Part shown: positions 1,277 through 29,563 of the stretch, piece by piece | Layout: each line of letters opens with the position of its first letter | Position numbering within the stretch: the first letter of the stretch is position 1 | DNA from: Deltaproteobacteria bacterium | Lineage (GTDB): Bacteria > Desulfobacterota > Binatia > UBA9968 > JAJDTQ01 | Direction: 5' to 3' | DNA: 59,020 nucleotides | NCBI GenBank assembly: GCA_028818755.1 | Contig: JAPPNF010000085.1 | Location: forward strand, 1 to 59,020 | The notes under the pieces: generated by a model | What the model was told of the DNA's origin: nothing | Seen by the model: only the letters and a program-made list of their open reading frames with translations | Database searches by the model: none | Made by a program: the position numbers and the translations under genes

Positions 1277-1288
1277 TACGGACCGCCT

Positions 1289-1753: not shown

Positions 1754-1781
1754 GAGAGTCGTTTCCTCCGCCCGGGGCCGA

Positions 1782-3551: not shown

Positions 3552-3598
3552 CCGGGGGCAGGGAGAGCGGCCCCGGCCTGTCCCGGTTCCTCGCGGGG

Positions 3599-5050: not shown

Positions 5051-5128
5051 CGGACGACATCCTGTTTGGTCAGCTCCAAACGCCCCAACCGCGCCGGTCG
5101 GAGTCGCCGGAACTGACTGATTTTCTCA

Positions 5129-5157
5129 TATTTTGTCAATATTATTCCGCTTGTCAA
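5129..5157 (-). promoter_or_regulatory. Possible sigma-70-type promoter for the dCache-HAMP gene
   Basis: In an unusually AT-rich stretch, the minus strand reads TTGACA (5152-5157), a 17-bp spacer, then AAAATA (5129-5134). A second TTGACAA lies 18 bp further on. The -35 is perfect and the -10 is poor, so this is a weak call. Confidence 0.3.
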
Positions 5158-7373
5158 TAAGATTTACGTCCTGTCACTCGCCGCACATCTTCCCGGTACT
5201 CCGCCGACCCGGCGCGGCTGAAGATCTCCTCCGCCCTCAGAAGCTTGGCGCGCGCGGCTTCCTGATCGCCGCTCTCGATTTGCGGCTGTCTCGCGGCTTC
5301 GCCGGCATCGTGGCCCAGTTCGCGGTCGATCTCCAAGGCGGCCTCGTAGAACCGTTGCGCCTCGTCGACGTCACCACGGGAGTCATGGATCTTCCCGATA
5401 TGGCTCAGGGTGGCCGCTTCACTCTGCCGGTTGCCCAGCTCGCGGTGGAGCGACAGGGCGCTTTCGAAATACGCGATGGCGCGTGTCAACTGGTCCTGGG
5501 CCATATAGGCGATGCCCAGTTCGTCCTGTACCAGCGCGGCGCCGGGCTTGTCCGCGGTTCTGAGGCAAATCCGTACTGCCTCTTCGAAGCTCCGGAGAGC
5601 GAGGTCGTGCAAGCCCGACTCGGTCAAGGACGAGCCAAGCGCTGCCAGAGACTGGACATGCCCGGCCTCGTCGCCCGAGTCCTTGAACAGCCGGACCGAG
5701 TCGGAATAGTGCAGGCGCGCCTTGTCCGCCTCGCCCACGCGGCGGTAAAGATGGCCGACGCGCAGATGCAACCGCGAGAGCCAGCGTGAATCCCCCTGCG
5801 CCTGCAGGCAGTCGATGGCGGTCTCGTACGCCTCGGTGGCCTGGGCGGCATCTCCCTGAAGATCGTAGAGATCTCCCAGGTTGGACGAAGCGGCCGCGCG
5901 GACGAAATCGTCTCCACCGGTCTCGCGGAGCGCCTCCTTGCAGTAGACGATGGCCGGAGCGACTCTTCCCCGCGCCAGGCTCGTGACGGCCAGCGCGTTC
6001 AGAACAGGCCCGAACCGTTCGCTGCGCGGCAGCGCCTCCTTGAGGTGGCCTTCGGCTTCCTCGTGAAGGCCCATGGCGTTCTCGACGACAGCCAACTGAA
6101 GATACTCGTTGGCATCTCCCGGGTTGCGCTCCGCCTGCCGCCGGTCCAGATCGTTCCGGAGCGCGGTCACGGCCGCGCCGGCCCATTCCGGCAGCGACGG
6201 TTGCGCCGTCCCCACCAGCAGCAGTTCGTCCGGACAGATGTCGGCGACTATCGAGCGGATCAGCTCGCCGGGCGACCCTTCGGGAAGCGCCTCCGTTGCC
6301 GCGGACAAGTCGGCCGGTGAAGCGGGACCGGCGGCAGCCACAGCCGGTTGGTCCGTTGACGTCGCGGCCGGCACAGCGAGGTCTGTCGGCTCAGCGTCGT
6401 CCAGTTCTTCGGGGGGCTGGGCCTCGGGTTCGGGAACGGAGTCGCCGAAATCCATTCCGCTGTACAGATAGGGCGCGCCGGCGTCTACGTCGCCGCTCTC
6501 GTCGTCCGGGCGTTCCTCGGCCACTGCCGCAGGCTTTGAACCTCTCTCCCACCAGGGGGATTCGACGACGGGTTCTCTCGCCGCACCTGCTTGCGCGGGA
6601 GGGACGGCCGGCCGGTCCTCCGGCAGCACGGCCGGCGCGGGCGTCTCTACCGGGTCATCGTCGTCCGGCTCCGTCGTCGGCTGGGACTGGATCTCGGGGT
6701 CGGTTTCGCCGTCCCCGGTGTCGGGCTCGTCCTCGGCGGTCTCTTCGGACCTTGAGCTACGCTCCCACCAGGCGGGCTCGGCGACGGGTTCTGCCGCTTC
6801 GCCGCCTTCGGCGGGAGGGAGGTCCGGCTGGTGGTCCGGCGTCACGGCGAGCGGGGAGGTGTCCACAGGGTCATCATCGTCGTCGGCCTCTTCAGGCCGT
6901 GGACCGCCTTCCCACCAGGCGGGCTCGGCGACGGGTTCTGCCGCTTCGCCGCCTTCGGCGGGAGAGACGGCCGGCTGGTCCTCCGACATCACGGCCAGCA
7001 CCGACAGGTCGACCGGGTCATCGTCGTCGTTCAGTTCTTCGGGCTCCCGAGGCTCGAGCTCGGTAACGGCCCCGCCGTACCGTACTCCCCTGTACATGTA
7101 ACCCGCCCTCCCGTGTGTGTCGGGCTCGTCCGCCGCGGCCTCTTCAGGCCGCGGACCGCCTTCCCACCAGGGAGAGCCGACGACTCTCTCGTCCGGCACA
7201 CCCTCGTTTCCGGGTGCCGCAGGCTGGCCGGACCGGCCGGGGGTCTCGGCGTCGGGAACGGCGAGTTTTTCCGCCCCGGCGCTTTGCGCGTCATCCGTAG
7301 CCGGAGCAGAGCCTCGTTCAGGTGAACCGAGTCCGGCTCGTTCTTCCTTGTCTTCCATCTCCTTGCGTTCCAT
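5154..7373 (-). CDS. TPR-repeat protein with acidic, WW-motif-repeat disordered N-terminal half
   Basis: About 739 residues, start taken at ATG 7373 (a TTG at 7412 is an in-frame alternative). Residues 1-350 are acidic and low in complexity. They repeat a short module, S/PAWWE(G/R)-(S/R)(P/S), followed by runs of Asp/Glu and phrases such as DDDPVD-S-LAV and MYRGVRYGG/LYSGMDFGD. At least five WW modules are present. The C-terminal ~390 residues are about eight Tetratricopeptide repeats of the NPHP3/kinesin-light-chain type (AYETAIDCL, YFESALSLHRELGN, FYEAALEIDRELG). No signal peptide or membrane segment, so probably a cytoplasmic scaffold. No enzymatic domain. I do not recognise a named family for the repeat half. 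Confidence 0.7.
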   Translation of the reverse strand: MERKEMEDKEERAGLGSPERGSAPATDDAQSAGAEKLAVPDAETPGRSGQPAAPGNEGVPDERVVGSPWWEGGPRPEEAAADEPDTHGRAGYMYRGVRYGGAVTELEPREPEELNDDDDPVDLSVLAVMSEDQPAVSPAEGGEAAEPVAEPAWWEGGPRPEEADDDDDPVDTSPLAVTPDHQPDLPPAEGGEAAEPVAEPAWWERSSRSEETAEDEPDTGDGETDPEIQSQPTTEPDDDDPVETPAPAVLPEDRPAVPPAQAGAAREPVVESPWWERGSKPAAVAEERPDDESGDVDAGAPYLYSGMDFGDSVPEPEAQPPEELDDAEPTDLAVPAATSTDQPAVAAAGPASPADLSAATEALPEGSPGELIRSIVADICPDELLLVGTAQPSLPEWAGAAVTALRNDLDRRQAERNPGDANEYLQLAVVENAMGLHEEAEGHLKEALPRSERFGPVLNALAVTSLARGRVAPAIVYCKEALRETGGDDFVRAAASSNLGDLYDLQGDAAQATEAYETAIDCLQAQGDSRWLSRLHLRVGHLYRRVGEADKARLHYSDSVRLFKDSGDEAGHVQSLAALGSSLTESGLHDLALRSFEEAVRICLRTADKPGAALVQDELGIAYMAQDQLTRAIAYFESALSLHRELGNRQSEAATLSHIGKIHDSRGDVDEAQRFYEAALEIDRELGHDAGEAARQPQIESGDQEAARAKLLRAEEIFSRAGSAEYREDVRRVTGRKSY

Positions 7374-9727: not shown

Positions 9728-10768
9728 TTACCCTTGCGCGACGCGGGCCTTCTCGGCTTCCACGGCAACGTCGGTGAGGTAGTCTTCCTGCTCGACGATG
9801 GTGTAGAGGGCAAGCGAGCCGTCATCCTTCACGGGCCTGCCGCCGAAGAAGTGGAAGGCGTGGCCGTCCCAGTCGTAGAACTCGTCACCGCGCTCGAACA
9901 TGGCCTTCCAGCGGTATCCCACCGGGCTCCGGTGCAGGCCGGTGCGCGCCGGCAGCGCGTCCTCCTCCTCCAGGGTCAGGGTGTCGTCTTCCTTCGCCAT
10001 GGCTTCCTCGGGCAGGGTCTCCCACATGTGGCGGTAGTTGGGCATGAACTCCTCCGCCCGCACCGTCAGCGCCGTGTGCATGTCCCACCAAGGCCCGTGC
10101 CCGGCCACGCGCTCGTCCACCTTGTTCGTGAGCTTGTAGATGAGCCGGCCGCCGGCTTGCAGGCGGAGCACCAGGTTGCCCTCGGCGACGTTGGGGTTCA
10201 CCTCGGGTTCAAGTGCGCAGTACTTCGCGAAGAAGTCGGCCGTCCGGCCCAGGTCCCGGGAGCCGTACACGGCGTGGCTGATGCGGCCGACGCCCTCGGA
10301 CGTGCAGATTTCCATGGCGCCTTCCGGCATGTGCTCCGGCGCCCAGAACTCGAACTGGTTGCCGTCGGGGTCGGCAAAGTAGATCACCGTGCCCTCGTCG
10401 CCGCCGTCCGCCGTCCGCACCGGGTCGGTGTGCGGGATGTCGTGGCGCTCGAGCCGCTCGACGTGCCGGTCCACGTCCTCGGGCCGGATGTAGAATCCGC
10501 ACCGCGGCAACTCCTCGCCCAGGGGTTTGGCCTGCGGATAGACCTCGGGCTGGAGGAACGCGCCGATGCGGCAGGACTCGCCGTCCCACCACAGGAAGCA
10601 CATGATCGGGACATCCTTCTTGCGCGCGTTGGTGGTGATGCCGCGGATCGGCCGCCGGGTGATGCCGGTGGCGTTCACTGCCCAGTCGACCCAGCTCACC
10701 ATGTCGTTGGTGCCCACGATAAAGTGATCGATCCAATGCACGACGCCTCGCGGCTCTTTACTACCCAT
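9728..10768 (-). CDS. Two-domain VOC (glyoxalase/extradiol dioxygenase) family protein
   Basis: A 346-residue soluble protein with two vicinal-oxygen-chelate modules. The first (residues ~10-150) starts [12 protein letters not shown] and ends [14 protein letters not shown], where His and Glu would be metal ligands. The second (~165-330) starts [21 protein letters not shown] and contains [12 protein letters not shown]-like sequence near the end ([13 protein letters not shown]). This layout resembles extradiol dioxygenases and related enzymes, but the substrate cannot be inferred. It is flanked by convergent amt and a 280-bp gap containing an inverted-repeat element, so it looks monocistronic. 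Start ATG 10768. Confidence 0.75.
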
Positions 10769-10873
10769 CGGTCACCTCCCTCGGGCTGTCGAGCCCGGAA
10801 TACTGCGGAATGGACCCTTGCCGGGCCATGACACGCCGATACCAAACGGGTCTGACCGTGTCAACGCATGGCG

Positions 10874-11017
10874 TCCTTCGACTTCGCGCCGCTTCGCGTC
10901 GCTACGCTCAGGACGAACGGTTGCATTGACTATCTTCCGTCAGGACGAACGGTTTGGAAACCTTGTTTCCGTTCGTCCTGAGCCCTTCGACAAGCTCAGG
11001 ACAAGCGAAGTCGAAGG
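10874..11017. repeat. Nested inverted-repeat intergenic element
   Basis: Outer arms CCTTCGACTTCG (10874-10885) and CGAAGTCGAAGG (11006-11017) enclose inner arms CTCAGGACGAACGG (10907-10920) and CCGTTCGTCCTGAG (10969-10982). The right half itself contains CTTGTC/GACAAG-type symmetry. This family of palindromic intergenic elements (GTTCGTCCTGAGC type) is common in many high-GC genomes. It fills the gap between the VOC gene and the cytochrome gene, and no gene is visible in it. Confidence 0.7.
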
Positions 11018-11047
11018 GCCGTTCGATTACTCGGACAGGACATTAGC

Positions 11048-11458
11048 TCAGTTGCCGAGCGACTTCATGTACTCGATGACGTTACGCCGGTCCTTTTCCT
11101 TGAAGTATTTCATGGTCATGCGCGACTTGACCTTGGGATCCTTGAGGAACTTGCGGAGGAATTTCTTGGGGTGCCTGAGGTATTCGAACAGGGTCTTCTC
11201 GTTCCAGACCAGGCCTTGCTTGCCCGCCCGTACGTAAGCCGGTGAGTATTTGAACCCCTTGGCCTGTCCCGCGGGCCGGCCCAGGACCTTGTGGAGGGTG
11301 GGTCCTTGCTTGTGCTTGCCTTCGACGTCGGTATGGCACACAAGGCAGCGTTTGAAGACCTTCTTGCCGGCCGCCACGTCGCCCTGGGCCAAAGCCGTGC
11401 CGGCCCCCAAGGCCGCCCAGGCCAGGACCGCGGACAAAAGGAAAACCCCTCGTACCAT
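11048..11458 (-). CDS. Periplasmic monohaem cytochrome c
   Basis: A 136-residue class I cytochrome c. Start chosen at ATG 11458, preceded by GGAGGT with six bases spacing. A signal peptide (MVRGVFLLSAVLAWAALGAGTALA) is followed by GDVAAGKKVFKRCLVCH, the single haem-binding motif, and a distal Met candidate in SRMTMKYF; the C-terminal helix is DRRNVIEYMKSL. It is divergent from the dihaem peroxidase/Rieske/molybdopterin operon starting at 11712. A small periplasmic cytochrome here is a natural electron donor or acceptor for that oxidoreductase (inference from position). Confidence 0.88.
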   Translation of the reverse strand: MVRGVFLLSAVLAWAALGAGTALAQGDVAAGKKVFKRCLVCHTDVEGKHKQGPTLHKVLGRPAGQAKGFKYSPAYVRAGKQGLVWNEKTLFEYLRHPKKFLRKFLKDPKVKSRMTMKYFKEKDRRNVIEYMKSLGN

Positions 11459-11570
11459 GGTGGCACCTCCCGTGTTCACCGTGGCTGTGTTCGAGCCAAC
11501 CCCCTCCCCACAATTTAGGTACTGTTGGTGGGAATTGAAAGAGGAAGGGAAACCTCGGCAACGGAAATTC

Positions 11571-11600
11571 TTGTCTCGGGACCACTACCGGTGGTATGAT
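11571..11600 (+). promoter_or_regulatory. Candidate promoter and operator for the idr-type operon
   Basis: TTGTCT (11571-11576), an 18-bp spacer and TATGAT (11595-11600) form a plausible sigma-70 promoter. The spacer carries an interrupted palindrome, ACCAC-5-GTGGT (11581-11595), which could be an operator. The leader to the first gene would be about 105 nt. Confidence 0.45.
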
Positions 11601-11711
11601 CGGGTCGCGTAATGGACAGGATATAGGTCCGTCCTTGGGGGACCCCGGCACGGGCTGACTTGACTCGGTTGCGGACGGTCTTTGCAGCCGGCGGTTCGGC
11701 AGGTGGTGCTC

Positions 11712-12785
11712 ATGAGAATGACGTTCGGGTGGGTCCTCATGCTCCTGCTGGGGTTGGCCGCTCCGGCGGTGAGCGAGGGCTCCGGAGGTGACAAGAACGT
11801 TGCGGCGGCCCAGGCCGGGCTGGGCAAGAGGCTGTTCTACGACGAGCGGCTTTCCGGCGACGTGAATTTCGCCTGCGCGACCTGCCACCAGCCGGCCAAG
11901 GCGTTCAGCGACGGCAGGCCCCTGTCCGCCGCTTATACCGGCGCCGCCCATTTCCGCAACACTCCCACCCTTGCCAACGTCGGGCGCCGCGCCGCGTGGA
12001 TGCACGACGGTCGCCTGGGCACCAACCTCAACGACGTCACCCGCGAGATGATCACCGAGACCTACCTCATGAACATGGACATGAGGCTCATGCAGGAACG
12101 TCTCAAGCAGGATCCGGTGTACGTGAAGATGTTCCGCGCCGCCGGGCTGGGCGAGCCGTCCAACGGGGGCGCCCGCAAGGCCCTGGCCGTGTTCCTGGAC
12201 ACCATCGTCTCCCGGGGCGCGCCGGTCGACACGGGTAGGCTGTCCTCCGCCGCCCGCAGGGGGCAAGCGCTGTTCCAGGGCCGCGCGGGGTGTGCCGCGT
12301 GTCACTCGGGGGCGCGCTTCACCGACGACAAGCCGCACAACACCGGGGTTCCGGACAATCCGGAGATCTGGATCGACCCTCGGAGGCATTCGGCGTTCGT
12401 GGCCTACGCCAAGTTCATGGGGATCGAGAACTACATGAGTCTGCGCGAGGATCCCGGCGCCTACGTGCGCACCCACCGGCCGGAGACCCGCCGAAGCTTC
12501 CTCACCCCGACCCTGCGCGAGCTCAAGTGGACGGCGCCCTACATGCACAACGGCGTGTTCCGGTCACTGGAGGAGGTCGTGGATTTCTATGACGCCGGCG
12601 GCGGGGACGATCCGTTGAAGGCCCCACAGCTCAAGCCGCTCGGATTGACGCCTGAAGAGAAGGCCGATCTCCTGGCTTTTCTGGAGGCGCTGAGCGGCGA
12701 GACGTTCGATACCGACGAATTCGTCTGGCGCGCCGACGACTACGACTACAAGCTGGTCCGGAACTGGCGCAAGGCACCGAACTGA
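11712..12785 (+). CDS. Dihaem cytochrome c peroxidase/MauG-family protein (IdrP-type)
   Basis: A 357-residue periplasmic dihaem protein. A signal peptide (MRMTFGWVLMLLLGLAAPAVS) is followed by haem motif 1 at C55-C58-H59 (CATCH) and haem motif 2 at C194-C197-H198 (CAACH). The typical peroxidase/MauG segments are present: LFYDERLSGD, FRNTPTLANV, WMHDGRLG, and the late TPTLRELKWTAPYMHNGVF. Bacterial dihaem peroxidases reduce H2O2 with electrons from small cytochromes. It is first in a tight plus-strand operon (5 bp to the next peroxidase, then Rieske and molybdopterin subunits). Two such peroxidases beside AioAB-like subunits are the hallmark of idrABP1P2 clusters; which of P1/P2 this is cannot be said. 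ATG 11712 is preferred over an upstream TTG because it opens the signal peptide. Confidence 0.85.
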   Translation: MRMTFGWVLMLLLGLAAPAVSEGSGGDKNVAAAQAGLGKRLFYDERLSGDVNFACATCHQPAKAFSDGRPLSAAYTGAAHFRNTPTLANVGRRAAWMHDGRLGTNLNDVTREMITETYLMNMDMRLMQERLKQDPVYVKMFRAAGLGEPSNGGARKALAVFLDTIVSRGAPVDTGRLSSAARRGQALFQGRAGCAACHSGARFTDDKPHNTGVPDNPEIWIDPRRHSAFVAYAKFMGIENYMSLREDPGAYVRTHRPETRRSFLTPTLRELKWTAPYMHNGVFRSLEEVVDFYDAGGGDDPLKAPQLKPLGLTPEEKADLLAFLEALSGETFDTDEFVWRADDYDYKLVRNWRKAPN

Positions 12786-12790
12786 GGGAG

Positions 12791-13933
12791 ATGGCCGTGA
12801 ACCGCTTCCGAACGATTCTCGTCATCGTCGCAGCCGCTGTGCTGGCGGCGGCCGCGCCGGCGGGCGCGGAGCGACCGCCGGGGTTGGCTCCCCTGGGTCC
12901 GCCCCCGATCCCCGCTGACAACCCGATGTCGAAAGAGAAGGTCGAGCTCGGCAAGCTGCTGTTCTTCGATCCTATCCTCTCCGGGAACTACGCCATGCCG
13001 TGCGCCGTCTGCCACTTTCCCGAAGCCGGCTGGTCGGTCCCGGAATCGGTCAGCACGGGCTATCCGGGCACGATACACTGGCGCAACAGCCAGACCATTA
13101 TCAACGCCGCCTACTACGGCAAGCTCTTCTGGGCCGGGGCGTCCAGGTCGCTGGAGTCCCAGGCCCGCTCCGCCGCCCGCGGCGCGGTGGCCGGCAACGG
13201 CGAGGACGACATGATGGAGGCGCGGCTCGCCTTCGTCCCCGAGTACCGGCGGCGGTTCAAGGAAGTCTTCGGCGACGACTGGCCGAACATCCGTCACGCC
13301 TACATGGCCATCGCCGCGTTCGAACGCACCCTGGTGCAGACCGACACCCCCTTCGACCGCTACATGCGCGGCGACGCCGCCGCGCTGACCGCGTCGCAGA
13401 AACGGGGCCTCGCGCTCTTCGCCGGCAAGGCCAACTGCATCGCCTGCCACCACGGGCCGTTGCTGACGGACGAGAAGTACCACAACGTCGGCGTGCCCCC
13501 GTACAATGGCTGGGAGGACGACGCGGTGGCGCAGATCACCTTCCGCTTCGAGCTCTATGCCAAGGGCGTCACCGAAGAAATGTACCGCAAGACCAAGGAC
13601 GACCCGGGTCTCTACTTCCGCACCAAGGAGAAGAAGCACCTGGGCAAGTTCCGCACCCCGAGCCTGCGCTACACCCGGTACACGGCTCCCTACATGCACA
13701 ACGGCATGCTCGGGACCCTGCGCGACGTGGTGGAGTTCTACAACGGCGGCGGCGGGAAGAACGAGTTCGCCGTCACCAAGAGCCCGTTGATCCGGCCCCT
13801 GGGCCTCACGGATGCGGAGATGGGCGACCTCGTGGCTTTCCTCGAAAGCCTTTCGGGCAAGGAAATCCTGATGGAGACGCCGGATCTCCCGGTGATGCAG
13901 CCGCTGCCGCCTCCGGGCGGGAAGGGGTCGTAG
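12791..13933 (+). CDS. Second dihaem cytochrome c peroxidase/MauG-family protein (IdrP-type)
   Basis: A 380-residue paralogue of the preceding gene. It has a signal peptide (RTILVIVAAAVLAAAAPAGA), haem 1 at C71-C74-H75 (CAVCH), haem 2 at C216-C219-H220 (CIACH), the FDPILSGNY and AYMAIAAFERTL segments, and TPSLRYTRYTAPYMHNGML near the end. GAGGGAG directly abuts ATG 12791, so GTG 12797, six bases on, may be the true start. The two peroxidases differ substantially, so the pair is not a recent duplication. In characterised iodate reducers the paired peroxidases are proposed to clear H2O2 or reactive iodine intermediates formed by the reductase (family knowledge). Confidence 0.85.
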   Translation: MAVNRFRTILVIVAAAVLAAAAPAGAERPPGLAPLGPPPIPADNPMSKEKVELGKLLFFDPILSGNYAMPCAVCHFPEAGWSVPESVSTGYPGTIHWRNSQTIINAAYYGKLFWAGASRSLESQARSAARGAVAGNGEDDMMEARLAFVPEYRRRFKEVFGDDWPNIRHAYMAIAAFERTLVQTDTPFDRYMRGDAAALTASQKRGLALFAGKANCIACHHGPLLTDEKYHNVGVPPYNGWEDDAVAQITFRFELYAKGVTEEMYRKTKDDPGLYFRTKEKKHLGKFRTPSLRYTRYTAPYMHNGMLGTLRDVVEFYNGGGGKNEFAVTKSPLIRPLGLTDAEMGDLVAFLESLSGKEILMETPDLPVMQPLPPPGGKGS

Positions 13934-13969
13934 CGCGCGGATTCCACGCCGGCGCCGGAGGACTGTACC

Positions 13970-14545
13970 ATGACGATATCCTGCCGAAACCTCGCCGGGC
14001 CCGCGGATGGTGGTGAAAAGGAAGGCTCGGCGCCCTGCCTGGTGAGCCGGCGCAGTTTTCTCCTGTGGAGCGGCATCACCACCGCTGTAATCATGGTCGG
14101 CGTTCCCGGGCGTCCGGGGGCGCAGACGCCGGCGGTGGTGTCCACCTACCCGCGCAAGCTCATCGGCAAGCTGTCGTCCCTGGAGCTGGATGAGCCCGTC
14201 GACTTCGAATACCCGGACGAGGGAGACTACGCGGAGTCGATCCTGGTGAAGCTGGGCACCCCGGCGGGGGGCGGCATCGGCCCGGGCCGGGACGTGGTGG
14301 CGTTCAACTATACCTGCACCCACCAGGGCGGCCCGCTCCAGGGCACGTACCAGGCCGGCGACAAGGCGCTGGGGCCGTGCCCGCTTCACCTCACGACCTA
14401 CGATCTGACGCGCCACGGCATCTTCATCTCGGGCCAGGCGTACGAGTCGCTGCCCCAGGTGCTGCTGGAGCTGGACGGCGACGACATCTACGCCGTGGGC
14501 ATGTTCGGCCTGATCTACGGCCGGTTCGACAATCTTCGATCCTGA
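13970..14545 (+). CDS. idrB: Tat-exported Rieske [2Fe-2S] subunit, IdrB/AioB family
   Basis: A 191-residue small subunit of an arsenite-oxidase/iodate-reductase family enzyme. A Tat signal SRRSFLLWSG (residues 26-35) and hydrophobic stretch lead to the Rieske site: C116-x-H118 (CTHQGG) and C137-x2-H140 (CPLH). The Cys pair that forms a disulfide in bc1 Rieske proteins is absent. The C-terminus GQAYESLPQVLLELDGDDIY...LIYGRFDNL is strikingly AioB/IdrB-like. GGAGG lies seven bases before ATG 13970. The large subunit follows after 11 bp and has no signal of its own, so it is presumably exported with this subunit. Confidence 0.85.
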   Translation: MTISCRNLAGPADGGEKEGSAPCLVSRRSFLLWSGITTAVIMVGVPGRPGAQTPAVVSTYPRKLIGKLSSLELDEPVDFEYPDEGDYAESILVKLGTPAGGGIGPGRDVVAFNYTCTHQGGPLQGTYQAGDKALGPCPLHLTTYDLTRHGIFISGQAYESLPQVLLELDGDDIYAVGMFGLIYGRFDNLRS

Positions 14546-14556
14546 GGATGGGTCCC

Positions 14557-17238
14557 ATGTCTACCCCGTATCATCTCCCTGAGCAGAGCGTGCCGCTTCC
14601 ACCCCCGGACGCGGAGGTCATCTCCACCGCGTGCGACTACTGCGTGGTGGCGTGCGGTTACAAGGTCTACCGCTGGCCGGTGCGGCGCGGGAACAACGGC
14701 GGTCCGGGCGCCAACGAAAACGCCCTCGGCGCGGACTTTCCCGTGGAGCCCCTGGGCCCCTGGGTCGTCGCCGACCAGCACAACATCGTGATGCACGAGG
14801 GCAGGCCTCACCATGTGGTCATCATCCCCGACAAGGACACGGACTTCGTCAATCACAGCGGCAACTCCTCGGTCCGCGGCGGCCTGCTCGCACAGAAGGT
14901 CTACAACCCCGACAAGCCGACCCGCGACCGTCTCCGGTCGCCGCTGGTGCGGATCTTCGGGGTGCTGATGCCGGTGACCTGGGACTTCGCCCTCGACGTG
15001 GCGGCCGAGGTAGGAAACCATGTCCTGGCGAAACACGGCACCAATGCCTATGCCGTGAAGACCTTCTCCTACGGCTATCTCGAGAACACCTACGCCATCA
15101 CCAAGTACGCCCTGCGGAACGTGCGCACCGCTAACTTCACGTTCCACGACACGCCGTCCGACGTCACCTCCACTCCCGGTTTCCGCGACGCGGGGTTCGA
15201 CAACTTCGGGCCGTCCTACGAGGACTGGCGTGACGCCGAAGTGCTGCTGATCTGCGGCACCGACCCCTACGAGACCAAGACCATCCTGTTCACCGACTGG
15301 ATCATGCCCGGGATCCAGAACGGGCAAAGGACGATCTTCATGCTGCCGCGCCGCACCGCCGGCGTCGCCTATGCGGAAAGCCAGGGCGGCCTGTACATCG
15401 ACATCCAGCCGGGCACCGACCTGCCGGTGCTGATGGCCATCGCGCGGGTGATCGTGGAGAACGGGTGGGAGGACCGGGAGTGGATCCGCGACTGGGTCAA
15501 CTCCAAGTGGGAAAGCTCGTCCGGGTTCGGGCAGGGAACGCGCAACACGCCGTGGCAATGGCGCACCACTTGGGGCATGTTCCAGACCGACGGTTTCGAG
15601 GACTGGAAGAAGTGGCTGCTGGCCCAGGACTATTCGGTCCCGGAGAAGGCCGCCGCCATCGCCGGCATCGACGTCCAGAAGATCCACACCGCCGCCGAGT
15701 GGATGGCGAAGCCGCGCGCCGACGGCTCCCGGCCCAAGACCTCGATCATGATCGAGAAGGGCTGTTACTGGTCCAACAACACCGGCAACACCAACGCCAT
15801 CGCCTCCCTGGGCATCGTCTGCGGCGCCGGCGGGCGGCCCGGCCAGGTGGTGGGGCGGGCCGGCGGACACCAGCGCGGCGGCCTTCGGGGCGGCAGCTAC
15901 CCGCGCAACAAGAGCCCGGAAAAGCTGCCCGGCCGGCGCCGGCGGGCGCTGGATACCGACCGCTACCTGATGGCCGGCCACACCCGTCTCGCCCACGTCA
16001 TCGGCAACACCTGGGTGCAGGGCATGTGCGGCACCCAGTCCCTGCAGGAGAAGTTCGACGAGCTGACCACGCGCAACCCGCACCAGGTGCGTAGCTTCGA
16101 CCGCGAGGACGTGGTGGAGACGCTGAAGCGGCGGACGGACTCGGGCGGCATGGTGGTGTGGCACCAGGACATCTACCTGGTGGACCCCATCGGCGCGCGT
16201 TATGCGGACATCGTGTTCCCGGCCGCCGGCTGGGGCGAGGAGACCTTCACCCGGGCCAACGGCGAGCGCCGCATCCGCCTCTACCCCAAGTTCTACGATG
16301 CTCCCGGCGCTGCCCGGCCGGACTGGTGGATCATCGCGCAACTGGCCCGCAAGATGGGTTTCGAGGGCTTCGACTGGAAAGACTCCAACCAGGTGCTGGA
16401 AGAGGGCGCGCGCTTCTCCCGGGGCTCGCGCAAGGACTTCTTCGCGGTGAAGGTGGCCGCCCGGCGCGAGGGCAAGACGCTGCACGACAAGCTCCGCGAG
16501 TTCGGCACCAACGGCATCCAGGGCCCGGTGCTCATGCGCGCCGACGGCACCCTGGAGGAGACCAAGCGGCTCCACGACGTCAACCGGGTGCTGCCGGACG
16601 AGGGTCCGGCCGGCTCCACGGTCTTCAACAAGAAGCTGACGCACTTCAACACCCAGACCGGGAAACTGAACCTGCAGAAGGCGCCGTGGGAGCTTTTCTC
16701 CAGCTACTGGGAGTGGATGAAGCCGCGGGAAGGGGAGATCTGGATCACCTCCGGCCGCATCAACGAGCGCTGGCAGTCGGGTTACGACGACCGGCGGCGC
16801 CCGTACATCGAGCAGCGCTGGCCCGAGAACTGGATCGAGCTGCACCCCGACGACGCCGGCGCGCGCGGGTTGGAGTCGGGCGACTACGCGATGATCCATT
16901 CCGACCGCATCCCGGTACAGAAGGAAACCATCCTCGGCATCGAGCCCGACGACTTCGACTTCGCCGCGCTGCTTCGCAACGGCTACATCGAGCTGACCCG
17001 CGGCGCCATCACCGCGGTGGTGATCGTGACGCCGGCCATCAAGAAGGGCGTAGGCTTCATGGATTTCCTGCAGACCAGCCAGCCGGCCAATGCCCTCTCG
17101 GGCCGGGTGGTGGACTGGATCAGCGGCAACTACAACTACAAGATGGGCGTGGGACGGCTGCGGCGCATGGGCGAAAGCCCCTACAAGCGCCAGTTCCGCA
17201 GCATGTCGTTCGCCCGCCGCGACATAGCCCTGGAATAA
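14557..17238 (+). CDS. idrA: Molybdopterin oxidoreductase catalytic subunit, IdrA-like (arsenite oxidase superfamily)
   Basis: An 893-residue DMSO-reductase-superfamily subunit. The N-terminal cluster site is C26-x2-C29-x3-C33 with Ser104 where most relatives have the fourth Cys; this [3Fe-4S] pattern is characteristic of AioA and IdrA. The RPGQVVGRAGGHQRGG segment keeps an Arg434-x3-His438 pair matching AioA Arg419/His423. The loop that in AioA carries the arsenite-site His195 and Glu203 reads STPGFRDAGFDNFGPSYED, with Pro207 and Asp215/Asn216 instead. With two dihaem peroxidases and a Rieske gene immediately upstream, iodate reductase is a better call than arsenite oxidase. GAGG nine bases upstream favours ATG 14557 over 14548. 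Reaction predicted: reduction of an oxyanion such as iodate in the periplasm; activity is inferred. Confidence 0.75.
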   Translation: MSTPYHLPEQSVPLPPPDAEVISTACDYCVVACGYKVYRWPVRRGNNGGPGANENALGADFPVEPLGPWVVADQHNIVMHEGRPHHVVIIPDKDTDFVNHSGNSSVRGGLLAQKVYNPDKPTRDRLRSPLVRIFGVLMPVTWDFALDVAAEVGNHVLAKHGTNAYAVKTFSYGYLENTYAITKYALRNVRTANFTFHDTPSDVTSTPGFRDAGFDNFGPSYEDWRDAEVLLICGTDPYETKTILFTDWIMPGIQNGQRTIFMLPRRTAGVAYAESQGGLYIDIQPGTDLPVLMAIARVIVENGWEDREWIRDWVNSKWESSSGFGQGTRNTPWQWRTTWGMFQTDGFEDWKKWLLAQDYSVPEKAAAIAGIDVQKIHTAAEWMAKPRADGSRPKTSIMIEKGCYWSNNTGNTNAIASLGIVCGAGGRPGQVVGRAGGHQRGGLRGGSYPRNKSPEKLPGRRRRALDTDRYLMAGHTRLAHVIGNTWVQGMCGTQSLQEKFDELTTRNPHQVRSFDREDVVETLKRRTDSGGMVVWHQDIYLVDPIGARYADIVFPAAGWGEETFTRANGERRIRLYPKFYDAPGAARPDWWIIAQLARKMGFEGFDWKDSNQVLEEGARFSRGSRKDFFAVKVAARREGKTLHDKLREFGTNGIQGPVLMRADGTLEETKRLHDVNRVLPDEGPAGSTVFNKKLTHFNTQTGKLNLQKAPWELFSSYWEWMKPREGEIWITSGRINERWQSGYDDRRRPYIEQRWPENWIELHPDDAGARGLESGDYAMIHSDRIPVQKETILGIEPDDFDFAALLRNGYIELTRGAITAVVIVTPAIKKGVGFMDFLQTSQPANALSGRVVDWISGNYNYKMGVGRLRRMGESPYKRQFRSMSFARRDIALE

Positions 17239-17305: not shown

Positions 17306-17406
17306 CCCGTCATTCCGGTGAAAGCCGGAATCCAGAGACACCGCGGCCAAGCCCTGGATTCCGGCCCTGTATCGAGTACGGGGCAGGCTTTTCGCCGGAA
17401 TGACGG
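17306..17406. repeat. MITE-like element with nested inverted repeats
   Basis: About 100 bp with imperfect ~20-bp terminal inverted repeats, CCGTCATTCCGGTGAAAGCC at the left and the complement of CCGTCATTCCGGCGAAAAGCC-like sequence at the right. Inside lie CCGGAATCCAG (17324 region) and CTGGATTCCGG (17354-17364). It occupies the gap between idrA and the HEAT-repeat gene and ends just before the latter's start. Confidence 0.65.
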
Positions 17407-17416
17407 AACCCGGACC

Positions 17417-19570
17417 ATGGTTCCAGCAACCGACCCGGTAGAGATCATCACTCCCCATCTGAAAGCGCCGGAGGACTCGATCCGCTGCGCCGCCGCCCGC
17501 GCCCTCGGCGCGCTGGGCGACGAGGGCGCGGCGCCGGCCTTGGTGGACGCGCTGCTGGATCCGGACCCGGACGTGCGGGCCGATGCCATGGCGGCACTGG
17601 TGCGTTGCGCCCGGCCGCAGGACGCGCCGGCGATCCGGCGCTCGTTACAGGGCGATCCGGTGGGTGAGGTCAAGACCGCGGCGGTGCGGACCTTGGGCCG
17701 GCTCGAGGACGGGGCGTCCACGGAGTTGCTGCGGGCGCTGGCGCGGGATCGATGCGAGTCGGAGGTGGCATGGGAGGAGGGTTCGTGGGACGACTGGCTG
17801 GACGTGCAGGTGGCCGCAATCATGGCGTTGGGGGATTTGGGCGCCGAGTCCGCGGTGGACGATCTGATCCGGGCGCGGGCCGAAGAGGGCGGGCAGGAGC
17901 TCGACCACGTGGTCTTCGCCGCCCTGGCGAAGATGCCCGGGCGCGGCGTCGCGGCTCTCCTCGATTTCCTGAACGACGGCAACGGGCGGGTCCGGGAGCG
18001 TGCCTTGGCCGCGTTGTCGCGGGCCGGGCGGGATCGGCTGACGCCGCTCCGCGACCGCCTGGTCGCCGACCCGAGCCCGGGCGTTCGCCGGCTTGCCGCC
18101 GACTGCCTGGATGCGGGAGACACGGCATTGTCCGCCTTGGTCTTGAAGGATCCGGAGGCTTCGGTCCGCGCCGCCGCGGTGGGGCGCGTTGCCCCGGCGG
18201 CACCGGATCTGGCCCGCGCGGCGCTTGCCGATCCCGATCCCCATGTCCGCGCCACGGCTCTCGAAGGGCTGGCGCCGCACCTCTCCTCCGCTGACGGGCC
18301 GGCGCTCGCCGCAAAGCTCGCGGCCTGGCTTTGGGAGAGGGACACCCGGCTGGCTGTGGCGTGCGCGTCGGTGTTGCCCACGGTGATGGGGGCGGGGGCG
18401 GCGAGCGCGCTGCGAAACACGGCGGCAGACGGAGAACGGCTTGCCGAGGTGCGCATCGCCGCGCTCCAAGCACTGGGAGAGATCGGTACCCGAGAGGCTG
18501 TCGATTCGCTGCCTGAGGCCGTGTCCGCTCCGGTGCGACAGGTTCGGGTGGCCGCCCTGGCGGCAGCGGCGGCAATGACGCGCGGCGCGTCCGAGGAGGG
18601 CCGGAGGCCGGCGCGGGATCTTCTGATCGAGGCCATGCGCGGCGATCTCCGGTCCCGCCCGTCCGGCGGCACGGAAGCAAGCGATGACGCTCCGGGTCAC
18701 GCGGCGGCCGGTTCCGCCGGAAGCGTGCTCGCGATAACTCCCGAGGGCGGCATCGTGGCCGCCGACGCGCCTGAGCTGGAAGCATCCACTGCCGGCTCGG
18801 GCGGCGTTGCCGAAGCGCCGCTGTTCCCCCGCTCCACCCTCGAAGCGATTCAGGCAGCGGAGTCCGGGACGGCCGCACCGTCCCACGATCCTTCACCGTC
18901 TCCGCCTGGCGCGGGGCGAGTCCGGTCCCGCCGCGTGCGGGTGGAAGGCGTTGACGACTCAGACGCCGATATTCGTCTGGTGGCGGTCCGGCTTGCCGCG
19001 GACTGCGCCGTCGAGGGCATCGACGAGGCGCTGGCGCAAACCGCCCTGTCGACGGAGTCCGACCTGCGGGCGGGCGTCTTCGAAGCCATTGCCCAACGCG
19101 CGGCGGTCATGCCGCTGACGGCCGACCTGCGGGCTATCCTGATCCGGTCACTGGCCTCCGACGACGCCCGGGTGCGATGCGCCGCCGCACGCGGACTCGC
19201 CCACGCGGGCGGCGATGCCACTCCACACCTCATCGCGTTGATTGACGACGCCGACGCTTCGGTGCGGGCGGCGGCGGTGACGGCGGTTGGCGCCGTCCAT
19301 CCCGCGAGAGTCGCGGCGGGCTTCCGCGACTCCTCGCCCCTGGTCCGCCGGGCTGCGGTGGATGCCGTCACTACGGCTGGCGAGGATCGTCTTCTTGAAG
19401 ACGGTCTAGGGGTGCTGGTGGACAGCAGCCATGCCGACAGCCTCATGGATGCATGTGCGCGTCACATCGAGGTGACACGGACGTTGATCGGGATGCTCAG
19501 CGATCCCCAGGTCTCGAAGCCGAGGCTTCGGACGATGCTGGAAGCCCTGGGCGGTGCCGGGGGCGAATGA
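17417..19570 (+). CDS. HEAT-repeat protein
   Basis: About 717 residues built almost entirely from HEAT-like helical repeats (AARALGALGDEGAAPALVDALLDPDPDVRADAMAAL type, AAVRTLGRLEDG, AARGLAHAGGDATPHLIALI), of the PBS-lyase/HEAT class. A Pro/Ser/Gly-rich linker at residues ~420-515 divides a longer N-terminal solenoid from a shorter C-terminal one. No signal peptide or enzymatic motif, so it would act in the cytoplasm as a binding scaffold. ATG 17417 is preferred; the upstream frame runs through the MITE-like element. It follows idrA on the same strand. HEAT proteins are sometimes chaperones for metalloenzymes, and a role in maturing the Mo/FeS subunit before Tat export is possible but speculative. 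Confidence 0.75.
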   Translation: MVPATDPVEIITPHLKAPEDSIRCAAARALGALGDEGAAPALVDALLDPDPDVRADAMAALVRCARPQDAPAIRRSLQGDPVGEVKTAAVRTLGRLEDGASTELLRALARDRCESEVAWEEGSWDDWLDVQVAAIMALGDLGAESAVDDLIRARAEEGGQELDHVVFAALAKMPGRGVAALLDFLNDGNGRVRERALAALSRAGRDRLTPLRDRLVADPSPGVRRLAADCLDAGDTALSALVLKDPEASVRAAAVGRVAPAAPDLARAALADPDPHVRATALEGLAPHLSSADGPALAAKLAAWLWERDTRLAVACASVLPTVMGAGAASALRNTAADGERLAEVRIAALQALGEIGTREAVDSLPEAVSAPVRQVRVAALAAAAAMTRGASEEGRRPARDLLIEAMRGDLRSRPSGGTEASDDAPGHAAAGSAGSVLAITPEGGIVAADAPELEASTAGSGGVAEAPLFPRSTLEAIQAAESGTAAPSHDPSPSPPGAGRVRSRRVRVEGVDDSDADIRLVAVRLAADCAVEGIDEALAQTALSTESDLRAGVFEAIAQRAAVMPLTADLRAILIRSLASDDARVRCAAARGLAHAGGDATPHLIALIDDADASVRAAAVTAVGAVHPARVAAGFRDSSPLVRRAAVDAVTTAGEDRLLEDGLGVLVDSSHADSLMDACARHIEVTRTLIGMLSDPQVSKPRLRTMLEALGGAGGE

Positions 19571-19618: not shown

Positions 19619-21217
19619 CTATTTCTCTTCAAACGTGATCCGGCCGCCCGTCATGGTGAGGACGGGCCGGATGGCGGCGATTTCGTCCGGCGGGACCGTC
19701 AAGTAGTCACGGTCGAGCACGACCAGGTCAGCCAGCTTCCCGGTCTCCAGTGAACCGAGGCTCTTTTCCTTGAACAGCAACTTGGCGTTGTTGATCGTAT
19801 GGGCGATGAGGGCGGCCTTGCGGGAGACGCGTTGATCCTCGCTCCAGGCCCTCTGCCCCGCGATATTGTGGCCCGTCACGGCCCAGCCGAGCGTCAGGAA
19901 CGGATTGACCGGCGCGACGATGGCGCCGTCAGAGCCCAACCCCCATAGGACTCCGGAACGCTCGATGCTGCCGAGAGGAGGACGGTTGCGCGACCGCGAG
20001 TTCATCATCGCCTGGGAGTGCACGGCAACTGCCACCCCCAACCTGCGAGCTCGATTCAGATCCGGTTCGGTGATCCCCAACGAATGCGCCAGCGTCCAGC
20101 GCAGCTCCTCGACATTGGGGATGTCGAACGCGATCTCTTCGACCAGGTCGATGAACTGGGAAATGGTAGGCCCGCTCATGGTGTGTTCGTGGATCGGCCA
20201 ACCATGCTTGGCGGCGGCGCGCGAAATGGTGCGTACGGGACCCCAGACAGATTCTTCCCAGCGTTCCCGGCGATTGGCCCGGTCGTGCATCGGCCCGTAT
20301 ATGTGTTCGCCCAGTCCGATCACGCCGAATTGATCCGTCGTGCTGAACGGCTTCGCGGCGCCACCCGTTATGAGTTCCAGGGCATCGTCCGTGCTTTGGG
20401 GATCGGTGGCGCGGTAGCGCAGCGTGTGGAAGACCCGCAGCGGCATCGGCCCGGCGGCGGCCAGGCTTGCAACCGGTGCCAGCTTGCCCTCGCTCGGCCG
20501 TCCGATATCGTAGACCGTCGTCAAACCCACTCGATTCAGCGCGGCCATGTAGGCGAGTATCGCTTCCTTGCTGGAACTCTTGTGGCGCCAGCCGATGAAG
20601 CGCCCGAAAGGCCGGAAGCTTTGCCGTCCGCGCATCCGGGCGCCTTCGGCGGGATCCCGGCCCACCGCCTTCAAGGCCGCGCTGTTGGCATAAGCCGTGC
20701 GGTAGCTTTGCTGGATGTAGACGGGATTGTCGGGTGCCGCCGCATCCAGCTCGGCGAGCGTGAAGCCGCCCGGCTCGTCCCGGAATTGGCTCGGCGACCA
20801 GCCGCCGATCACGGTGATCCACTGCTCCCTGGGCGCCGAAGCCGCTTTCGCGGCGATCATCGCCAAAGCCTTGGCCCGGCTCGTGACGCCATCGAGGCGA
20901 ACTTCGCGCTGATAATTCCAGACGCTGCGGATGAAATGAAAATGATTGTCGATCAAGCCGGGGATCACGGTCTTGCCCCCGAGTTCGATGATCCGGGTAT
21001 TCGGACCTTTGTGGCGGGCCACCGCCTGAGCTGAACCGACCGCGACGATCCGGCCGTTATCGACGGCCAGGCTATGGGCAACGGAGAAATCCGGATCGAC
21101 GGTCAATATCTTGCCGTTCGAGATGATGATGTCCGCCGATTGCGCCGTAGCCAAAGGCGCCGAAACAAGGGTCCACGTAAGAACCGTCAACGCGGTGAGA
21201 AAATATCGTAATGACAT
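19619..21217 (-). CDS. Exported amidohydrolase family 3 protein (YtcJ-like)
   Basis: A 532-residue metal-dependent hydrolase with an N-terminal signal peptide (RYFLTALTVLTWTLVSAPLATAQS). Amidohydrolase landmarks: the small beta domain ADIIISNGKILTVDPDFS...LAVDNGRIVAVG, the metal-binding NHFHF after GKTVIPGLID (residues ~85-98), PIHEHTMSG with a further His pair, LAHSLGITEPDL, and the terminal GKLADLVVLDRDYLTVP. YtcJ-type proteins hydrolyse N-substituted formamides or amides, but the substrate here is unknown. It converges on the HEAT gene and is divergent from the formyl-THF hydrolase-like gene. Confidence 0.85.
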   Translation of the reverse strand: MSLRYFLTALTVLTWTLVSAPLATAQSADIIISNGKILTVDPDFSVAHSLAVDNGRIVAVGSAQAVARHKGPNTRIIELGGKTVIPGLIDNHFHFIRSVWNYQREVRLDGVTSRAKALAMIAAKAASAPREQWITVIGGWSPSQFRDEPGGFTLAELDAAAPDNPVYIQQSYRTAYANSAALKAVGRDPAEGARMRGRQSFRPFGRFIGWRHKSSSKEAILAYMAALNRVGLTTVYDIGRPSEGKLAPVASLAAAGPMPLRVFHTLRYRATDPQSTDDALELITGGAAKPFSTTDQFGVIGLGEHIYGPMHDRANRRERWEESVWGPVRTISRAAAKHGWPIHEHTMSGPTISQFIDLVEEIAFDIPNVEELRWTLAHSLGITEPDLNRARRLGVAVAVHSQAMMNSRSRNRPPLGSIERSGVLWGLGSDGAIVAPVNPFLTLGWAVTGHNIAGQRAWSEDQRVSRKAALIAHTINNAKLLFKEKSLGSLETGKLADLVVLDRDYLTVPPDEIAAIRPVLTMTGGRITFEEK

Positions 21218-21385: not shown

Positions 21386-22300
21386 ATGCGCATTCTGATC
21401 CACGGACAGCAGGCGTTCGGCAAGGCCGTGCTGGAACGGTTGATGGAGGGTCCTGACGAGGTGGTGGGCGTCCTCTGTCCGCCGGACCGGGAAGGCTCGC
21501 CCCCGGGTCCGCTCAAGGAGGCGGGATTGGAGCAGGGGCTTCCGGTCCACCAGCCCGAGACCTTCAAGACGGACGAGGCGCTGGAACTCGTGCGGAGCTT
21601 CCGGTCCGACCTGTGCGTCATGGCTTACGTGACGCTCCTGGTGCCTCGGCGGGTGCTGGACGCGCCGCGGCTGGGCACCATCCAGTACCATCCCTCGCTG
21701 TTGCCCTTGCATCGTGGACCCAGCTCCATCAACTGGGCGCGCATCCAGGGGGACGAGAAGACCGGCCTCACTATTTTCTGGCCCGACGAGGGTCTGGACG
21801 AGGGTCCGATCCTGCTCCAGAAGGAGGTGGAGATCGGCCAGGACGATACCGTCGGCAGCCTTTACTTCCAGAAGCTGTTTCCCATGGGCGTGGACGCCAT
21901 CGCCGAGGCCGTGGAGATGGTACGCGCCGGCACCGCGCCGCGCATCGAGCAGGATCACGGCCGGGCCACCTACGAAAGCTGGTGCCTCGAGGCTGACGCC
22001 GAGGTCGACTGGTCCAGGCCGGCGGAAGAGGTTCACCGCCTCATCTGCGGCACCGACCCCCAACCCGGCGCCTGGACCACCGTGGGCGGCAACAAGCTGA
22101 AGCTCTACGGCAGCCGCCTGGGGACGGGTTCGGGCGCGCCCGGAGAGGTCCTGGGCCTGTCCGACGCCGGCATGGCCGTGGCCGCCGGCGACGCGAGCGT
22201 GGTGGTGCAGCGGGTTAGGGCGCACGACTCCCGCACCAAGGTAGCCGCCGCCGAATACGCCGCCGGGGCCGGCATCCGTCCCGGCCAACGTCTGGGTTGA
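21386..22300 (+). CDS. Standalone formyltetrahydrofolate hydrolase-domain protein (10-FTHF dehydrogenase N-terminus type)
   Basis: A 304-residue folate-dependent formyl-transferase fold protein. Residues 1-200 form the Rossmann-like domain with IQYHPSLLPLHRGPSSINWA, TIFWPDEGLDEGPILLQKE, and DDTVGSLYFQKLFP. This is closer to the hydrolase domain of 10-formyl-THF dehydrogenase (ALDH1L1; YHPSLLP-RHRG pattern) than to methionyl-tRNA formyltransferase. The catalytic His (in HPSLLP) and the later Asp (WPDEGLDEG) are present. Residues 205-300 form the C-terminal OB-like domain (KLKLYGSRL). There is no aldehyde dehydrogenase partner domain, so it may hydrolyse 10-formyl-THF or formylate a small amine. 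ATG 21386 chosen because the region upstream lacks domain sequence. Confidence 0.78.
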   Translation: MRILIHGQQAFGKAVLERLMEGPDEVVGVLCPPDREGSPPGPLKEAGLEQGLPVHQPETFKTDEALELVRSFRSDLCVMAYVTLLVPRRVLDAPRLGTIQYHPSLLPLHRGPSSINWARIQGDEKTGLTIFWPDEGLDEGPILLQKEVEIGQDDTVGSLYFQKLFPMGVDAIAEAVEMVRAGTAPRIEQDHGRATYESWCLEADAEVDWSRPAEEVHRLICGTDPQPGAWTTVGGNKLKLYGSRLGTGSGAPGEVLGLSDAGMAVAAGDASVVVQRVRAHDSRTKVAAAEYAAGAGIRPGQRLG

Positions 22301-22312: not shown

Positions 22313-22334
22313 ACGGGTTTGAAACCCGCCTGCG
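22313..22334. repeat. Short palindromic element (GGGTTTGAAACCCGCC type)
   Basis: One copy of a short repeat family centred on GGGTTT-AAACCC. Other copies lie near 32318-32336, 32359-32378, 40051-40070 and 57391-57415, all between genes. Confidence 0.6.
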
Positions 22335-22338
22335 TAGC

Positions 22339-22734
22339 CTACGAGGACGCGGTCCTTGAGGGCGTGCAGTGCACGCCCTCAAGGACCGCCCATGCCGCCG
22401 CTGCCGGCGGCCAGCGGGTGGTCCGCGACACCCACCGGGCACGCTCCCGCGGCGCCATCTCGCACAGCAGGTTGCGGACCTGTAAGGGGTCGGCGGCAAC
22501 GTCGCTCAGGCTCAGGCCATCGTCACGGCGCCACATGAGGCGGTAGTCGCCCTCGACTTCAAGAAAGCTCGGCCAGAACACCTGCCGCCACGGCATCAGG
22601 CCCCAGGCCTGCAAGCGGCGGGGTTCTTCGGGCGGCGGCTCGAAGAGGCTGAAGACTCCTCTGGCTGGGCTTCCCTCTCTCAGAAGGCGCATCAGCGTCC
22701 ACCCGAGGTCGGTGACCGACACCGCCCGGTCCTG
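22339..22734 (-). pseudogene. C-terminal part of the sulfatase-family protein, beyond an in-frame TAG
   Basis: This stretch is in the same frame as, and immediately downstream of, the sulfatase-family gene ending at 22735. It continues the family's C-terminus (VSVTDLGWTLMRLL, then LEVEGDYRLMWRRDDGLSLSDVAADPLQVRNLL). The only interruption is TAG at 22735-22737, followed by CAG. Without that codon the protein would be about 640 residues. It is therefore either a nonsense-mutated tail, a sequence error (CAG to TAG is one change) or a read-through product. The last ~15 residues lie over a perfect hairpin and may not be native. Confidence 0.7.
22351..22387. terminator. Perfect 18-bp inverted repeat
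   Basis: GGTCCTTGAGGGCGTGCA (22351-22368), one central base, and its exact complement (22370-22387). It sits between the convergent formyl-THF hydrolase and sulfatase genes. No T-tract follows on either strand, so bidirectional termination is possible but unproven. Confidence 0.5.
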
Positions 22735-26235: not shown

Positions 26236-26346
26236 GCCGCGTGCCGACGGGGAACCGGCGTGGTGTTCCACGCGTGCTTCAATGATGATAGACGATTAAG
26301 AACTTCATGGATACATGAACGGGCGCATGCGGCAACCGAGGGGACA

Positions 26347-27096
26347 ATGAGCGAAGAAAACAGGGTCATGGGCATCGACATCGGCGGCACCGGCGTCAAG
26401 GCGGCGCTGGTGGACACCCAGAACGGCACGATGACGTCGGAAAGGGTACGGCTGCCCACGCCCCAACCGGCGACGCCGGCGGCCGTCATGGAGGCCATCA
26501 AGGAGTTGCAGCGCCAACTCCAATGGCAAGGGACGGTGGGTTGCGGTTTCCCGGGCCTGGTCAAGAGCGGCCGGGTGCAGCGGGCGCCGAATCTCGATTC
26601 ATCCTGGATCGGCTACGACCTGGCCGGCCAGCTCCAGGCACAACTGGGGGCGCCGCGGGTCGCCATCGGCAACGACGCCGACGCCGCCGGACTGGCCGAG
26701 TTCCGCTTCGGCGCCGGCCGGGGCGCGGGCGGAACCGTTCTGGTCATCACGCTGGGAACCGGCATCGGCTCGGCGATCTTCCGCGACGGCGTGCTCCTGC
26801 CGGACACCGAGCTGGGCCATCTCGCAATGCACGGCAAGGTGGCGGAAAAGTGGGCCGCCGCCAGCATCCGGACGAACAAGGACCTGAGCTGGAAGAAGTG
26901 GGCGAGGCGGCTCAACGACTACCTCGTTCACGTGGAGTACCTTCTCGGCGTCGACCTGTTCATTATCGGCGGAGGCGTCAGCAAGAAGCCCGCGAAGTTC
27001 TTCCCGTACCTTCAGGGCGTAGGTGGCCGGGTGGAAGCCGCGCGCCTCGGCAACGCCGCCGGCATCATCGGCGCCGCGCTGTTCCCTCTGCGTTAG
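26347..27096 (+). CDS. ppgK: Polyphosphate glucokinase (ROK family)
   Basis: A 249-residue sugar kinase that phosphorylates glucose using polyphosphate (and often ATP). It has the ROK phosphate motif [13 protein letters not shown] at residues 8-20 and the PpgK-diagnostic sequence: LTPQPATP-like [64 protein letters not shown], and [17 protein letters not shown]. It closely follows actinobacterial PpgK in layout and length. RBS GAGGGGA precedes ATG 26347. Its stop overlaps, tail to tail, the stop of the CHAD protein gene, and ppk1 is present at 46-48 kb, so the organism can both make and spend polyphosphate. Confidence 0.92.
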
Positions 27097-29455: not shown

Positions 29456-29472
29456 CTTTCAAACGTCAACTG

Positions 29473-29498
29473 GTGTCCTGTCCGGTTAGACAGGACAC
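29473..29498. promoter_or_regulatory. Perfect 10-bp inverted repeat upstream of parA-like gene
   Basis: GTGTCCTGTC (29473-29482), 6-base loop, GACAGGACAC (29489-29498), about 18-43 bases upstream of the ParA-like ATG and ~65 bases downstream of the HU stop. It could be an operator, an attenuator, or the HU terminator; there is no T-tract. Confidence 0.5.
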
Positions 29499-29563
29499 TG
29501 AGTCCGGCAGGCCGCCAGGGTAGTTGGAGGCCACTCCCCCCGTGGCCCCCAACCTTGCGCGCG

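Follow-up and report, generated by a model that had tools for sequence, protein, structure and literature searches.

The 59,020-base stretch of DNA analysed here (contig JAPPNF010000085.1 of assembly GCA_028818755.1, Deltaproteobacteria bacterium; GC content 66%; hereafter the window) carries four genes in the order idrP2-P1-B-A, the gene set of iodate reductase. There is strong reason to believe that this operon is of the marine alphaproteobacterial type, that it was acquired horizontally, and that it is kept in a variable segment of the chromosome together with a divergently transcribed cytochrome c gene. The genes concerned are as follows.

11048-11479, - strand: monohaem cytochrome c, divergent from the operon; Pfam Cytochrom_C; one CxxCH; start at GTG 11479 or at an internal ATG, 11458
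11682-12785, + strand: dihaem peroxidase of the idrP2 type, at the head of the cluster; Pfam CCP_MauG; alternative ATG start at 11712
12791-13933, + strand: idrP1-type dihaem peroxidase, adjoining idrB; Pfam CCP_MauG
13970-14545, + strand: idrB, Rieske subunit with twin-arginine signal; Pfam Rieske; TIGR02694 at 117.8 bits (cut-off 95.65)
14557-17238, + strand: idrA, molybdopterin catalytic subunit, 893 aa; Pfam Rieske_3, Molybdopterin and Molydop_binding

An earlier note on this DNA had proposed this set of a cytochrome c, two dihaem peroxidases, a Rieske protein and an 893-residue subunit, and the reading frames and Pfam matches agree with it. The four plus-strand genes are separated by gaps of 5, 36 and 11 bases. 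Each peroxidase has two CxxCH sites, read from the translations, and a Sec-like signal, judged by eye; the IdrB translation contains the twin-arginine motif SRRSFL and the Rieske ligands CTH...CPLH. IdrA has the 3Fe-4S motif C26-x2-C29-x3-C33 (CxxCxxxC), and no signal peptide was seen on it by eye. The idrP2 and idrP1 products are 67-76% and 72-80% identical, respectively, to separate counterparts in loci L037-L059. The best solved (PDB) relative of both is 6e1c, annotated as "Di-heme enzyme", and both score under the cut-offs of the NCBIfam MbnH and MauG models.

Gene order

The order of two peroxidase genes, idrB and idrA on one strand (P-P-B-A) was found in 78 of the 79 IdrA loci having at least 3 kb of upstream DNA, or 77 of 78 distinct loci, as L032 is the L110 contig; 13 loci with shorter upstream DNA were left uncounted for gene order. 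At the exception, L035, idrB is accompanied by one peroxidase gene, with no second recognised in the ~1.3 kb beyond. A chance arrangement is excluded because the four genes recur in the same order in all of these loci save one. The P-P-B-A order pointed out previously is thus the standard idr order and not a variant of it, and idrP2,P1,B,A has likewise been described for SCT, IR-12 and Ca. Methylomirabilis iodofontis (PMC10989891). At the seven loci encoding the arsenite oxidase catalytic subunit AioA, no peroxidase match was present in the stretches fetched, which include 2.9-4.0 kb of upstream DNA.

The catalytic subunit

Named bacterial and archaeal genomes were scanned contig by contig with an alignment of six IdrA-like proteins as the query, and the best 80 of the 510 relatives found, with 73-96% identity, were used. 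Apart from L110 and L111, two contigs of one genome of the same genus, the nearest IdrA proteins among these 80 are labelled Alphaproteobacteria or Proteobacteria (83-86% identity; Afifella, Pelagibius, Kiloniellaceae, Sulfitobacter and others). Identity to the AioA proteins compared is 27-31%. Among the best 40 of 726 plasmid records, IdrA-like copies at 49-63% identity occur in Vibrio THAF190c, Azonexus hydrophilus and Thiothrix subterranea, and the remaining matches are at 30% or below. The Vibrio and Azonexus plasmids (L025, L026) carry a complete P-P-B-A cluster and the Thiothrix plasmid (L027) also carries idrA; these plasmids are possible vehicles for transfer.

A tree of IdrA was built by a quick search from 78 rows, comprising the window and 77 of the 100 loci for which a frame of IdrA or AioA was available; 19 near-duplicate alphaproteobacterial loci, L035 (short), and L110, L111 and L147 (duplicates) were excluded, and the IdrA anchors are putative idr bacteria rather than the proteins of SCT or IR-12. 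A branch with an SH-aLRT support of 100 divides 71 IdrA-like rows, including the window, from the seven AioA rows, so that the check proposed in the earlier note, whether the catalytic subunit branches inside AioA, places it on the IdrA side. The window and four rows of its genus, two of them from genome G008, lie inside a set of 31 rows, 25 of which are labelled Alphaproteobacteria (SH-aLRT 100).

At all 20 of the alignment columns that best separate the 71 IdrA from the seven AioA rows, the window has the IdrA residue; these columns, in which at least 95% of the IdrA rows share one residue and the AioA rows mostly have another, were picked post hoc with the window among the 71. Tyrosine 172 is found in 71 of 71 IdrA rows, and the aligned AioA residue is histidine in six of seven rows and tryptophan in the divergent Bosea row. 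This histidine is presumably the arsenite-site residue His195 of A. faecalis. In the same site region the IdrA side shares a glutamate with six of the seven AioA rows, and an arginine and a histidine with all seven. On these comparisons the assignment of the catalytic subunit to the IdrA clade, and not to AioA, holds.

Horizontal acquisition by the host genus

Host RpoB has an identity of 57-59% to those of three named Alphaproteobacteria, of 81% to that of one genome of its order and of 66-68% to those of two genomes of its class. In a midpoint-rooted RpoB tree of 13 rows, for which frames were chosen by motif and the truncated copy of G005 was left out, the host group is separated from the alphaproteobacterial rows with a support of 100/100; judged by RpoB, the host is not an alphaproteobacterium. 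By contrast, the IdrA proteins of these same three alphaproteobacteria, Pelagibius litoralis (L040), Sulfitobacter algicola (L043) and Thalassovita taeanensis (L059), are 81-85% identical to that of the window, and those of G056, from the host's own class, and G024, from its order, are 56% and, over a fragment, 57-58% identical. Since the RpoB is not alphaproteobacterial and the IdrA is, the operon was evidently transferred. In a tree of the joined P2, P1 and B proteins (60 rows), the genus falls in a set of 28 rows, 23 of which are labelled Alphaproteobacteria (SH-aLRT 100), and together with the RpoB and IdrA identities and the divergent IdrA of G056 and G024, this indicates that the operon was transferred as a whole.

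IdrA matches at E <1e-60 were found in five of 395 sampled genomes of the host's phylum, the window's own included. The other four (G056, G073, G091, G225) have 53-58% identity and branch outside the alphaproteobacterial group, and the phylum therefore holds older IdrA types as well. The 16S of G004, a relative of the host within its genus, matches a Deltaproteobacteria probe exactly and has one mismatch to an Alphaproteobacteria probe. For the genome of the window itself, a search that scored 26 of 104 candidates, and that also missed the 16S of near-complete relatives, returned no 16S.

The chromosomal site and its losses

Of nine genomes of the genus, five have idr (G000, which is that of the window, G004, G005 and G008, and G002, where it is broken up over contig ends), the site is empty in three, and G006 (76% complete) is unassigned. 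In G001, G007 and G003 the genes that flank the segment in the window, at 9732-10866 on the left and 21386-22300 on the right, are separated by ~210, ~260 and ~455 bases, respectively, and no operon lies between them; the assembly of G003 is one contig of 4.2 Mb and that of G001 has 4 contigs. In addition to the cytochrome c gene and the operon, the variable segment contains two genes.

17465-19570, + strand: HEAT-repeat protein within the variable segment; Pfam HEAT_2
19619-21217, - strand: amidohydrolase with a signal-like N-terminus, far end of the variable segment; Amidohydro_3

The HEAT-repeat gene has matches next to idr in G002, G004 and G005, and the site lacks it in G001, G003 and G007. 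In G003 a scar is present, which is made up of ~90 bases of 3'-terminal sequence from the cytochrome c gene and, where the amidohydrolase gene begins, of a further ~190 bases (~135 bases of the gene start and 55 upstream), separated by unrelated sequence. As both ends of the segment are retained, which is the remnant expected of such an event, a segment of ~10 kb was evidently deleted in G003; no comparable scar was recognised in G001 or G007. The idr-less G003 (support 80/84) and G001 (99/98) are placed among idr-bearing species in the RpoB tree, and the simplest history is therefore a single gain before the species split, followed by at least two losses.

Several further observations concern this site and these bins. 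A short dispersed repeat at 10868-11019 is found at many places in the related genomes, and the sequence at 17354-17408 recurs at a few; lying near both ends of the cytochrome-idr stretch, these repeats may possibly aid deletion. When ~22320-39375 is compared with L139, L140, L141 and L036, the genes at 37.6-39.4 kb are found to adjoin the formyltransferase gene in G001, G002, G003 and G007 and to be oppositely oriented, which marks an inversion or other rearrangement bordering on the idr segment. A second idrA fragment on contig 922 of G008 (L033/L111) is 87% identical, is found in the same bin as the 96% copy and is sister to the genus clade; its downstream DNA had no match among the sequences compared, and it is either a paralogue or a contig of another species. 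In the bin "Anaerolineae bacterium IP29b_bin.19" (L115, L108), the IdrA is nearly identical to that of an alphaproteobacterial metagenome-assembled genome, while a fragment of RpoB clusters with Pelagibius (76%); the bin is mislabelled or mixed.

Alternative explanations

Several results weigh against an acquired idr operon in this host. The NCBIfam model of the arsenite oxidase large subunit, TIGR02693, fits IdrA at 423.9 bits against a cut-off of 359.05; the tree of joined P2, P1 and B proteins was flagged for the coming together of long branches (Azonexus and G056); the operon itself contains no molybdenum-cofactor or regulatory gene; the contamination of the genome is estimated at 5.57%; and the window was set beside the IdrA of SCT and IR-12 by description and not by sequence. 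The first of these would suit an AioBA (arsenite oxidase) operon that adjoins two peroxidase genes unrelated to it, as would the score of IdrB above the curated cut-off of TIGR02694 and the fact that the closest solved structures to the catalytic subunit are of AioA. The arsenite oxidase label cannot, however, tell Idr from Aio, because the record of the Azonexus P-P-B-A cluster gives its idr gene this name too. The low identity to AioA against that to the nearest alphaproteobacterial IdrA, the fully supported branch with the window and AioA on its opposite sides, the invariant tyrosine of the IdrA rows and the ordered peroxidase genes, present in nearly every IdrA locus counted and at no AioA locus, all argue against this explanation, as does a next best match within the genome of merely E 6e-13; an arsenite oxidase operon is accordingly very improbable. 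Given that both models pass their cut-offs and that the Azonexus genes are named arsenite oxidase, databases may mislabel idr operons in this way.

As the IdrA is alphaproteobacterial in type, it was considered seriously whether the contig is alphaproteobacterial contamination in the bin of a host without idr. Contamination values across the nine genus bins are 1-7%, and in the related bin G005 a fragment of 16S (L129, on contig 203) matches an alphaproteobacterial probe exactly, unlike the 16S of G004; L129 is probably a foreign contig in that bin. Against this stand the adjoining flanking genes of the three idr-less genomes, the two segment ends kept within the single contig of G003, and the recurrence of the same junctions in other members of the genus, on the left side in G002, G004, G005 and G008 and on the right side in G002 and G005. 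On the synteny of the flanks and the scars in G003, bin contamination was rejected, and we regard it as having hardly any chance of being correct.

The divergent cytochrome c and proposed function

The divergent cytochrome c gene is at the same place in all five idr-bearing genomes of the genus (the window, G002, G004, G005 and G008), and among IdrA loci outside the genus a single weak cytochrome c match was found (39%, L055). It is known that idr is variably accompanied by a c551-like cytochrome (PMC8801600), and the cytochrome c of the window is a possible electron donor to IdrAB. By homology to Denitromonas IR-12, electrons from quinol would reach the Rieske cluster of IdrB by way of a bc1-type complex and a small cytochrome c, and would continue via the 3Fe-4S cluster to the molybdenum centre of IdrA in the periplasm, where iodate would be reduced to hypoiodous acid. 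The latter would disproportionate to iodide and iodate, and the two dihaem proteins would probably clear peroxide formed on the way. This chemistry, and iodate as the natural substrate, are proposed by homology; in the published IR-12 model cytochrome c551 feeds IdrAB, hypoiodous acid disproportionates and the peroxidases remove incidental hydrogen peroxide (PMC8692401). The host genome encodes TatC, a haem-copper oxidase (COX1) and a protein of the cytochrome b family, as well as, elsewhere, one member of the chlorite dismutase family, which may be HemQ.

Three cultured marine alphaproteobacteria with idr are described as reducing 2 mM iodate almost fully in static culture and far less when shaken, with none of them growing under nitrogen gas (PMC11445184); because of this behaviour, a role at low oxygen appears likeliest for the window operon. 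It is conceivable, though rather less likely than not, that the genus, which lies outside the Alphaproteobacteria and is labelled Deltaproteobacteria, breathes iodate with the whole enzyme set of marine alphaproteobacteria and a dedicated cytochrome c donor of its own, inherited and deleted with the operon as one exchangeable respiratory module. It would also be compatible with the haem-copper oxidase of the host that this is a true Idr-family enzyme with another role, such as the clearing of iodate or halogen oxyanions at low oxygen without support of growth; this is somewhat unlikely, as Denitromonas IR-12 requires idrA to grow on iodate (PMC8692401) and nothing found points to another substrate.

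Comparison with known systems and significance

The idr loci of marine alphaproteobacteria (L040, L043 and L059) have the same four genes in the same order and strand as the window, and differ from it in that the stretches fetched are without a homologue of the window cytochrome c and the hosts belong to another major group. The experimentally tested systems of Pseudomonas sp. SCT, Denitromonas sp. IR-12 and Aromatoleum TC-10 have the same gene set and order by published description (PMC8692401, PMC8801600, PMC10989891), and probably belong to another IdrA subclade than the window, if the Azonexus plasmid copy (~50% identity) stands for the betaproteobacterial type. Unlike in that group, no moaA or two-component system was recognised in the variable segment of the window. 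The AioBA systems of NT-26, Thermus and Acidiphilium share with the window the architecture of Rieske and 3Fe-4S molybdopterin subunits and the glutamate, arginine and histidine of the site region, and are set apart from it by the low identity, the histidine at the position of Y172 and the absence of peroxidase genes from the flanks examined.

Earlier papers have reported that idr moves between classes and that other phyla contain deep-branching copies (PMC8692401, PMC8801600, PMC10989891). In the present case, one transfer to a genus beyond the Alphaproteobacteria was followed by retention in several species and by a loss whose scar can still be read. Should the operon be active, one more predicted iodate reducer would join the groups that PMC8692401 names, which are the Alpha-, Beta- and Gammaproteobacteria, Planctomycetaceae, Rokubacteria, Lindowbacteria and NC10. 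The terms "Deltaproteobacteria", "Myxococc-" and "Desulfobact-" are absent from the main text of PMC8692401 and PMC8801600, the supplementary tables of which may list the host group, and the first two terms are absent from PMC12535851; PMC10100899 mentions Desulfobacterota twice, in a passage that deals with Asgard archaea and transfers involving them rather than with IdrA. Among the matches listed in the literature searches, none of the other papers linked idr to these groups. Iodate reduction supplies iodide to seawater and thereby affects sea-surface ozone chemistry (PMC11445184).

Other features of the window

The molybdenum hydroxylase genes at 34979-38087, from which the earlier note had drawn a hint of a lineage with 4-hydroxybenzoyl-CoA reductase-like genes, score below the equivalog cut-offs for that enzyme (866.6 against 994.55 bits and 182.3 against 257.8 bits), and the lineage label is therefore weak. 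Upstream of the operon, at 950-6330, TPR/SPOR, HAMP and TPR proteins match several different contigs in G005 and G008, which suggests that TPR/SPOR-HAMP-TPR clusters are repeated in the genus.

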